From Bacteroidales bacterium (lineage in GTDB: Bacteria; Bacteroidota; Bacteroidia; Bacteroidales; UBA12077): a DNA stretch of 64,000 nucleotides. Location: contig JAEINU010000003.1 in assembly GCA_016342685.1 (NCBI GenBank), positions 310,001 through 374,000 of the forward strand, in the 5' to 3' direction. The notes beneath the pieces are model-generated. The model made no database searches. It saw only the letters and a program-made list of their open reading frames with translations, and was not told the origin of the DNA. Shown one piece after another: positions 22,664 through 24,729 of this stretch. A program made the position numbers and the translations under genes. Each line of letters starts with the position of its first letter. The stretch's first letter is position 1.

Positions 22664-22951
22664 ATGACAAAAGCAGATATCGTTAACGAAATTTCAAAAA
22701 ACACAGGGATTGAGAAAATAACTGTACAAAAAACAGTTGAAGCTTTCATGGAAACCATTAAAGATTCATTAGTAAATGATAAGAATGTATATTTAAGAGG
22801 TTTTGGTAGCTTTATCGTTAAAAAACGTGCTGAAAAAACTGCAAGGAATATTTCAAAGAATACAACTATTATTATTCCAGAACACTTTATTCCTTCATTT
22901 AAACCTTCGAAGAGATTTGTGAATAAGGTAAAAGGTAACGTTAAACATTAA
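22664..22951 (+). CDS. HU-family DNA-binding protein
   Basis: A 95-residue nucleoid protein. It begins MTKADIVNEISKNTGI, the standard HU/IHF helical start, and has the beta-arm core VYLRGFGSFIVKKRAEKTARNISKNT. The usual arm-tip proline region is replaced by IIIPEHFIPSFKPSKRF, as in Bacteroidota HU/IHF variants. It binds and bends DNA as a dimer. It is followed after 24 bases by the 30-residue basic protein and then by RNase G, a conserved order in this phylum as far as I recall. Confidence 0.94.
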   Translation: MTKADIVNEISKNTGIEKITVQKTVEAFMETIKDSLVNDKNVYLRGFGSFIVKKRAEKTARNISKNTTIIIPEHFIPSFKPSKRFVNKVKGNVKH

Positions 22952-22975: not shown

Positions 22976-23068
22976 ATGCCAAGCGGAAAGAAGAGAAAAA
23001 GACATAAGATGGCAACTCATAAACGCAAAAAACGTTTAAGAAAAAATCGTCACAAGAAGAGAAAATAG
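22976..23068 (+). CDS. 30-residue basic ribosomal-type protein (AURKAIP1/bS22-like)
   Basis: An ATG-started frame of 30 codons ending in TAG encodes MPSGKKRKRHKMATHKRKK followed by a further basic tail. Some two thirds of the residues are K, R or H and there are no acids. It matches the AURKAIP1/COX24-type small protein widely annotated in Bacteroidota, related to actinobacterial bS22 and mitochondrial mS38, which sit in the small ribosomal subunit near the decoding region. It lies 24 bases after the HU gene. It is below the size cut-off of most ORF calls, but the strong composition and recognisable sequence make it real. Confidence 0.85.
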   Translation: MPSGKKRKRHKMATHKRKKRLRKNRHKKRK

Positions 23069-23095
23069 AATATTAGTTTATTCTAAGTAAATGAC

Positions 23096-23135
23096 ATTTG
23101 AACCTATTGAAGTTGTATCTTCTTTAGGTTTAAAT
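23096..23135 (+). promoter_or_regulatory. Long hairpin in the RNase G leader
   Basis: ATTTGAACCTA (23096-23106) pairs with TAGGTTTAAAT (23125-23135) through 11 pairs including one G-T. A symmetric TT/TT internal loop and a 4-bp GAAG/CTTC upper stem follow, with a 6-base TTGTAT loop. There is no T-run behind it, so it is not a standard terminator. It ends 43 bases before the rng start, and RNase E is known to autoregulate through leader hairpins in E. coli, so autocontrol is a reasonable inference. Confidence 0.5.
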
Positions 23136-23178
23136 TGTTTATAGTAATTAATGTATTACAAAATCTGGAGAAGGAAGC

Positions 23179-24729
23179 GTGAGTACCGAACTAGTAATTG
23201 ATGTAACACCCTCTGAAATAGCTATTGCCTTACTTGAAAACAAGCAATTAGTTGAGTTAAATAAGGAAAAGAGAAATTTGCAGTTTGCCGTTGGAGATAT
23301 ATATCTTGCAAGGGTAAAGCGAATTATGCCTGGTTTAAACGCAGCTTTTGTTGATGTTGGTTATGAGAAAGATGCATTTTTGCATTATCTTGACTTAGGA
23401 CCTCAATTTCGTACTTTGAATAAGTATGTTAAAAGCGCAATGACAAAGAAGGGTAAAGCATTAGCTATACCTAAAATGAAACTTGAAACAGATATCGATA
23501 AAAACGGTAAAATTTCAAATGTTTTAAAGGGTGGTCAGTTAGTGTTGGTGCAAATTGCAAAGGAGCCTATTTCAACAAAGGGTCCGCGATTAAGCTCTGA
23601 GATATCAATTGCAGGTAGAAATATTGTACTTATACCTTTTTCTGATAAAGTATCTATTTCTCAAAAAATTTCCTCACCTGAGGAAAAGAAACGTTTAAAA
23701 AGATTAGTTGAAAGTATTAAACCTAAAAATTATGGTGTAATTGTTCGCACTGTAGCCGAGGGTAAAAAGGTTGCTGTTTTAGATGCTGAGCTTAGAGGTT
23801 TAGTTAAGAAATGGGAGACTGCTTTTGATAAACTTACCGGTGAGGTTGTACCAAAATTAGTAATAAGTGAACTAAACAGAACATCTGCTATGTTAAGGGA
23901 TGTTCTTAATGTATCTTTTAATCATATTTTTGTAAATGAGGATACTGTTTATAGAGAGTTAAGAGATTACATACTTACTATTGCTCCTGAGAAAGAAAAG
24001 ATTGTAAAGCATTTTGATAAAGTTGAACCGATTTTTGATCACTATGGTGTCGATAAGCAAATTAAAGCAGCATTCGGCAAAACAGTGTCTTTTAAAAGCG
24101 GTGCATATCTTATTATAGAACACACAGAAGCTTTGCATGTTATTGATGTTAATAGCGGAAATCGTTCTAAGCTAGGAGAAGATCAGGAATCTAATGCTCT
24201 TGAAGTTAATTTAGCAGCGGCTGATGAAATTGCTCGTCAGTTACGATTAAGAGACATGGGAGGTATTATTGTTGTCGATTTCATTGACATGCACACCAAT
24301 GAAAATAAGCAACGGGTTTACGAGAAAATGAAAGAGGCGATGTCGGCCGATCGAACCAAACACAATATCTTACCTTTAAGTAAGTTTGGTTTAATGCAAA
24401 TAACGCGACAAAGAGTTCGTCCAGAATTAAGTATTCGAACGGTTGAAAAATGTCCTACATGTAAAGGCTCTGGAGAAGTTAATTCAAGTGTTTTATTTGT
24501 GGATGATATTGAAAATCACATTAGCTTCCTTATTAATGAAGCTAATCATAAAAAACTTACTTTAAAAGTGCATCCATATATAGCCGGTTATATAAAACAG
24601 GGTATATATTCTACAAAAGTTAAATGGTTCTTTAAGTTTAAAAAGAACATAAAAGTAGAATCAGTAAATTCTTACCACTTTCTAGAATTTCACTTCTTTG
24701 ATAATGATGGTGAAATTATAAAAGATTAA
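23179..24729 (+). CDS. rng: Ribonuclease G (RNase E/G family)
   Basis: A 516-residue endoribonuclease that cuts AU-rich single-stranded RNA and matures rRNA. An S1-type domain is at about 35-130 (VGDIYLARVKRIMPGLNAAFVDVG). The DNase I-like catalytic region has metal-binding D323 (HVIDVNSGN) and D367 (IIVVDFIDM). The zinc-link CPTC motif is at C425/C428. The start is GTG, chosen because homologues begin here (MSTELVIDV) and a GGAG-AAGGA Shine-Dalgarno-like stretch precedes it, which is unusual for a Bacteroidota gene. No extended RNase E scaffold tail is present. Confidence 0.95.
   Translation: MSTELVIDVTPSEIAIALLENKQLVELNKEKRNLQFAVGDIYLARVKRIMPGLNAAFVDVGYEKDAFLHYLDLGPQFRTLNKYVKSAMTKKGKALAIPKMKLETDIDKNGKISNVLKGGQLVLVQIAKEPISTKGPRLSSEISIAGRNIVLIPFSDKVSISQKISSPEEKKRLKRLVESIKPKNYGVIVRTVAEGKKVAVLDAELRGLVKKWETAFDKLTGEVVPKLVISELNRTSAMLRDVLNVSFNHIFVNEDTVYRELRDYILTIAPEKEKIVKHFDKVEPIFDHYGVDKQIKAAFGKTVSFKSGAYLIIEHTEALHVIDVNSGNRSKLGEDQESNALEVNLAAADEIARQLRLRDMGGIIVVDFIDMHTNENKQRVYEKMKEAMSADRTKHNILPLSKFGLMQITRQRVRPELSIRTVEKCPTCKGSGEVNSSVLFVDDIENHISFLINEANHKKLTLKVHPYIAGYIKQGIYSTKVKWFFKFKKNIKVESVNSYHFLEFHFFDNDGEIIKD

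Follow-up and report, generated by a model that had tools for sequence, protein, structure and literature searches.

The presence of a strong hairpin between the gene for a 30-aa ribosomal protein and the gene for RNase G (rng) raises the question as to whether such an element belongs to the leader of the nuclease message or marks the end of the message upstream. The hairpin lies in the window, by which we mean the whole 64,000-nucleotide stretch of Bacteroidales DNA that was analysed. The original prediction placed it in the rng leader, described it as lacking a terminator tail and proposed that RNase G might regulate its own mRNA through it, by analogy with RNase E of E. coli.

The hup-bS22-rng gene row and its hairpins

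All features given here lie on the forward strand (+). The row begins with hup (22664..22951), an open reading frame for an HU-family DNA-binding protein (PF00216, E 1e-26). It is followed by the gene for the 30-aa protein (22976..23068), whose ribosomal nature had been proposed from the sequence and is borne out by the alignment of 30 of its 30 residues to chains of PDB 9i5v and 7jil; the phmmer match to 7jil chain 5, the title of which gives both 30S ribosomal protein S22 and 50S ribosomal protein L38, has an E-value of 8e-10. We refer to this protein of the AURKAIP1/COX24 family as bS22 (alias bL38); at E 0.001 neither Pfam nor NCBIfam contains a match to it. The downstream gene (23179..24729, GTG start) is rng as predicted, being of the RNase E/G family by PF10150 (E 1e-96) and TIGR00757 (E 7e-129).

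This arrangement is widely kept. We compared a set of 80 loci on contigs of named genomes, most of them labelled Bacteroidales/Bacteroidota, some from Sphingobacteriaceae-type genera and a few from Flavobacteriales. In 79 of these bS22 lies at most 700 nt 5' of rng. Of the 78 that extend far enough for hup to be placed, 66 have it at most 400 nt 5' of bS22 and the other 12 at a distance of 539-1012 nt. The order hup, bS22, rng also occurs in nine loci of same-order genomes, some of them already in the set, and we infer from the analysis that the three genes are co-transcribed. While hup and bS22 are adjacent in most Bacteroidales loci, a spacing of about 500-1000 nt in L223-L247 (other orders) and in 12 of L113-L192 leaves room for an extra gene.

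Two features of the rng start were observed alongside. In 71 of 84 loci the codon aligned to it is GTG, which is unusually constant for a start codon other than ATG, and in the window the start is preceded by the Shine-Dalgarno-like GGAGAAGGA (23167..23175). Such a purine stretch is found in 21/21 loci of the genus and in 18/142 others (shuffled mean 8.8, largest 17), and at 26/299 other ORF starts; Bacteroidia ribosomes are reported, in a passage of PMC9976891, not to recognise the Shine-Dalgarno sequence.

The hairpin in question, here called HP2 (23096..23135), reads ATTTGAACCTA-TT-GAAG-TTGTAT-CTTC-TT-TAGGTTTAAAT and is built of a lower stem of 11 bp with one G-U pair, an internal loop of TT/TT, an upper stem of 4 bp and a terminal loop of 6 nt, with a conserved core in which AACCT (23101-23105) pairs with AGGTT (23126-23130). 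On its 5' side 27 nt separate it from the bS22 stop, and on its 3' side 43 nt separate it from the rng GTG. The minimum free energy (MFE) fold of 23086-23145 holds HP2 together with six outer pairs (23087-23092 with 23137-23142, making an element of 23087..23142 that is also present in the centroid fold) at -19.2 kcal/mol, compared with -6.9 on average for shuffled sequences (z -5.9, 0/200 as good), so that both the existence and the shape of the predicted stem-loop stand, and it is stable. The description of HP2 as having no T-run likewise holds in the sense that there is no run of five, yet its 3' side is U-rich, with an interrupted tail TTTAAATTGTTTAT (23129..23142) that overlaps the stem end and is supported by the tail composition across leaders.

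A second, small hairpin (HP1, 23066..23085, TAGAATA-TTAGTT-TATTCTA) includes the bS22 stop codon and was observed only within the genus, with no clear counterpart outside it. Its mean stem score over 20 genus loci is 6.9 against 5.2 as the largest among 200 shuffled sets, and it is weak in L007, L016 and L021. The arms of HP1 co-vary over much of the genus (L002-L021), as in TAGAATAA/TTATTCTA, AGGATAAT/ATTATCCT and AAGATAAT/ATTATCTT.

Conservation and locus specificity of the stem

In order to assess how widely a hairpin is kept we took the best local fold in the bS22-rng gap with 60 dinucleotide shuffles per locus and a threshold of z<=-2. Such a hairpin is present in 20/20 same-genus loci and in 49/59 loci of other families, the ten that miss the threshold including L027, L061, L067, L081 and L084, and in 22/27 loci of other orders of the class, where the sequences differ. 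Our stem rule counts a leader when all five pairs of the core (A[AG]C[CT]T / A[GA]GTT) are formed together with five or more out of eleven pairs next to it. It is satisfied by 96 of 163 leaders, 75 of the 142 outside the genus among them, whereas 20 shuffled sets gave 8.9 on average and never more than 14; the 163 leaders represent 159 distinct sequences from two genome sets that partly overlap. The shared stem has the consensus YAAACYUAAAG...CUUUARGUUUR.

The stem is not universal, as some loci with rng carry unrelated hairpins or no clear hairpin. In eight loci (L171, L177, L184-L187, L191, L192), which we take to be of Sphingobacteriaceae type from the presumed family of the genera in their titles, AACCTC..GAGGTT is found in L184, L186, L187, L191 and L192 and is absent from L171, L177 and L185. 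At L052, in genome G023, the 3' side of HP2 is interrupted and the gap, which exceeds that of its relatives by about 220 nt, contains a strong palindrome (E -35), a similar palindrome being present behind rng in the same genome.

The original prediction had called for a covariance analysis and had counted a lack of conserved pairing as evidence against itself. Among the 75 hairpins of our alignment (75 of 78 selected, L105 being too long and L120 and L152 also absent), for which the five core pairs were required, changes on both sides occur at 10/14 pairs, amounting to 148 cells where shuffling gives 44 on average, and the covariation score of 0.406 falls to 0.181 or 0.10 when the partner is slid by one column. 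At core pair 4 the counts outside the genus, with pairing not required, are C-G 52, U-A 18, U-G 3 and other 4 (n=77); the exchange of C-G for U-A is therefore no product of the rule, because it persists without the pairing requirement. Judged from these alignments the HP2-type stem is a covarying structured RNA whose two sides change while keeping their pairs, and the suspicion that pairing is not conserved fails on these compensatory changes and on the locus specificity of the stem described below.

An inverted repeat with conserved half-sites might also act as DNA, namely as a palindromic operator bound by a transcription factor. The half-site spacing varies widely, however, the apical part is often paired by different sequences and the both-sided changes fit an RNA better, all of which makes an operator very improbable.

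The stem is also specific to this place. Of 98 related genomes, 5 contain the exact stem AAACCTAAAG...CTTTAGGTTT and 6 contain GAACAAACTT...AAGTTTGTTC, one copy each, and a comparison of coordinates puts all 11 sites at the bS22-rng junction. A stem of the GAACAAACTT type is also found in Bacteroides and Parabacteroides, for example at L179, L182 and L188. Five other AACCT..AGGTT pairs in the window make poor hairpins as judged by eye without folding.

Two further explanations were considered and rejected: a general terminator word, since the exact stems are found at rng only in the 98 genomes, and a repeat or mobile element, since only one match to the 141-nt region exists at E 0.001 in the genome of the window.

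A covariance search of the class with model R1 gave matches in 35/247 genomes. Of eight same-order genomes seven were matched, six of them at rng (G000, G045, G083, G169, G203 and G235; not G266), while the 28 matched genomes outside the order gave 0/17 at rng among those with a listed rng place, 11 being without one. The window's own genome has a second R1 site (C23:615220), a terminator-like hairpin. The sites away from rng mean that the covariance model has background. No Rfam family matched the window at its gathering score, and between 22900 and 23300 at E up to 10 one sub-threshold snoRNA match alone was returned, 3' of HP2. HP2 is a conserved stem-loop adjoining a nuclease gene on its strand, with a transcript that it presumably shares with rng, and it matches neither rne5 nor rne-II, the described families of this kind.

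Leader element or end of the upstream message

The position of the hairpin bears directly on the question of which message it serves. In the 75 loci outside the genus that carry the motif the distance from the bS22 stop to the start of the core has a median of 33 nt (sd 8), and that from core to rng a median of 58 nt (sd 43). Within the genus the stop-to-hairpin distance has an sd of 2 and the hairpin-to-rng distance an sd of 1, with about 48 nt from core to rng; as both distances are tight, the genus allows no choice between an upstream and a downstream role, and the tight spacing to rng fits a leader element too.

The tail gives HP2 the look of an end to the upstream message. Behind the core the T fraction is 0.53-0.92 at 10 of 12 positions and the T side is richer than the mirror side (p 2e-7, n=75). 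The leaders have a median T-score of 2.55 (n=141), which resembles that of hairpins between convergent genes (2.13, n=72; p 0.17) and exceeds both the 1.61 of divergent 5'-region hairpins (n=107; p 8e-7) and the 0.56 of hairpins in coding sequence (n=245), on a yardstick that separates convergent from divergent hairpins weakly (p 0.02). Strong tails (score >=4) are found in 15% of leaders and 24% of convergent ends. The longest T run is 3-4 in 21/21 genus loci, short of the uninterrupted run of at least five U that directly follows the stem of an intrinsic terminator, and reaches five or more in 14 of the 75 motif loci outside the genus. At the place of HP2 other families have hairpins with a T-run (L030, L063, L078, L092), as does L066, where rng is missing.

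No sigma-70-like promoter was listed between HP2 and rng, and the roughly 48 nt available in the genus leave little room for one. A promoter box of Bacteroidota is TAnnTTTG. It can be seen by eye between HP2 and rng in only three genus rows (L009, L014, L016).

The original prediction had also conceded that it would fall if the hairpin only terminates the upstream transcript. This is borne out in part, by the anchoring on the bS22 stop outside the genus, the U-rich tail and the T-run hairpins elsewhere, and is opposed by the conservation of the stem sequence, which is lacking in a neighbouring terminator of the genus. The arms of HP2 (30 nt) are 98.2% identical on average in 20 genus loci, compared with 45% at the four-fold sites of rng codons 2-150 in 20 genus loci. 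As a control we used the strongest hairpin 3' of the neighbouring dsbD-like gene in 19 genus genomes. Its mean pairwise identity is 0.50 and that of HP2 with loop and outer pairs, cut by the same MFE procedure, is 0.80, a comparison that rests on one control terminator and is a small sample, a second candidate region being orthologous only in its own genome; cutting HP2 by the conserved motif instead gives 0.93. T-runs of at least five are found in 16/19 control hairpins and in 0/20 HP2. The control hairpins (L257-L275) are of interest in themselves as a case of terminator turnover, with an identity of 0.50 between congeneric species and a T-run mostly kept (16/19).

These figures argue against HP2 being an ordinary terminator, since its identity is 80% against 50% and its T-runs number 0/20 against 16/19. 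An ordinary intrinsic terminator of hup-bS22, with rng served by its own promoter or by leaky read-through and the sequence conservation incidental, would account for the U-rich tail, the stop-codon anchoring outside the genus and the T-run hairpins of some families, and hairpins 3' of rng in several genus members are also partly alike by eye. Set against the near-fixed arms, the control and the occurrence of the exact stems once per genome and here only, we consider it improbable. The near-fixed sequence of HP2 amid changed surroundings points instead to a probable role in controlling, as a dedicated site, the amount of RNase G, and not to an ordinary end-of-gene signal: it looks like a weak terminator and is conserved like a recognition site.

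Proposed attenuation, possible feedback and known systems

The reading that we favour, and to which the sequence comparisons lend about an even chance, is that HP2 would belong to hup-bS22 as its dedicated attenuator or 3'-end hairpin and would keep down the read-through that reaches rng. HP2 and its imperfect U-rich tail would end, or fix and protect, most hup-bS22 messages and only part of transcription would pass into rng, with one promoter serving an abundant protein pair (hup, bS22) and a scarce nuclease. For such an attenuator we infer co-transcription of the three genes, partial termination or processing and a trans-acting factor, the last being suggested because it is the stem sequence and not just the pairing that is fixed; recognition by such a factor would explain the upkeep of the stem beyond pairing. 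Termination alone is no explanation for the fixed stem sequence, and as the genus tail is without a five-T run it may terminate weakly or not at all.

An attractive possible candidate for the recognising factor is RNase G, because RNase E of Synechocystis is reported to bind hairpins, cut the AU-rich strand behind them and control its own leader, with premature ends (as described in parts of PMC10989929). In such a feedback the enzyme would recognise HP2 and cleave within or next to it, the U-rich tail being one conceivable place, and so reduce its own mRNA when plentiful, as described for RNase E in E. coli and in Synechocystis. The stem in front of rng is locus-specific and conserved in sequence, and the sites described in that account of Synechocystis are of the same type, with an AU-rich single strand behind a hairpin. 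No rng match at E 1e-40 was found in 5 of 14 same-order genomes (G038, G040, G070, G078 and G090, 90-96% complete), the 14 having been picked for oddities and not randomly, and G040 has kept bS22 with a GC-rich T-run hairpin in place behind it (L066), a single case that fits feedback. Against this, the position of the hairpin outside the genus tracks the bS22 stop and not rng, and there are rng-bearing loci whose hairpins are unrelated or unclear. Weighing both sides we regard feedback by RNase G as rather unlikely.

An RNase E-type motif in the tail was rejected as an explanation: RNWUU, the motif given in a part of PMC10989929, is present in 47/75 motif loci against a shuffled mean of 51.7 and is not enriched, which counts against feedback and neither proves nor excludes cleavage.

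In a further and likewise doubtful form of this reading HP2 might be a sensor, at which RNase G would recognise YAAACYUAAAG/CUUUARGUUUR and decide whether a stable hup-bS22 message results or a full one making more RNase G. If true this would tie nuclease supply to ribosomal-protein transcription in Bacteroidales.

The alternative recognising factor is bS22 or another protein. Were HP2, as part of the 3' UTR of hup-bS22, bound by bS22 or a different RNA-binding protein, it could serve autogenous control or 3'-end protection of the ribosomal-protein message and not the control of rng, an improbable reading to our mind that is consistent with the anchoring on the bS22 stop outside the genus and with HP1 covering the stop codon within it, and that has a precedent in the L17 downstream element (RF01708) of Lactobacillales and Listeria (from part of PMC2864571). 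A 16S search in the window's own genome gave no match.

The portions covered of PMC2864571 and PMC8040213, which catalogue structured RNAs of this phylum, mention no rng-leader element. The portions covered of two B. thetaiotaomicron transcriptome papers mention no hup-bS22-rng transcript; the one from 2020 reports that an RNase G homolog is present. Titles and the starts of abstracts on RNase G/rng autoregulation and on Bacteroidetes RNase E named no such element, most subscription papers lying outside this scope, and in the parts of the literature covered little was found on RNA decay control in Bacteroidota. As a locus-specific element joining a ribosomal-protein gene to an RNase E/G gene, HP2 offers a handle on how Bacteroidota may set nuclease levels.

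A stem-loop in the 5' UTR of E. coli rne is said to mediate feedback, reportedly from the work of Diwa in 2000 and Schuck in 2009. The rne leader is represented in Rfam by the family rne5. A further Rfam family, rne-II (RF01756), is assigned to Pseudomonadales in part of PMC2864571. HP2 resembles all three as a conserved stem-loop whose message, presumably so for HP2, encodes an enzyme of the RNase E/G family; they lie in the 5' UTR, whereas HP2 is intergenic, anchored outside the genus on the upstream gene and without an Rfam match. The L17 downstream element, from what that source gives, is alike as a conserved RNA element 3' of a ribosomal-protein gene, and HP2 matches no Rfam family. With intrinsic terminators and attenuators HP2 shares a stem and a U-rich tail about 30 nt behind a stop codon, but its stem sequence is common across families and its tail is interrupted, with no five-T run in the genus.

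In E. coli the rng mRNA is controlled by RNase III (a passage of PMC3985665), which resembles HP2 in that the supply of RNase G is set at its mRNA, putatively so for HP2; the E. coli control acts via RNase III. The rne 5' UTR of Synechocystis, according to sections of PMC10989929, is cut in a U-rich site and shares with HP2 a U-rich strand in a hairpin context and premature 3' ends before the nuclease gene, which for HP2 are putative. That site has six consecutive U in a long 5' UTR, whereas the tail of HP2 is interrupted and intercistronic. HP2 would extend RNA-level control of RNase E/G genes past the Proteobacteria and Cyanobacteria.
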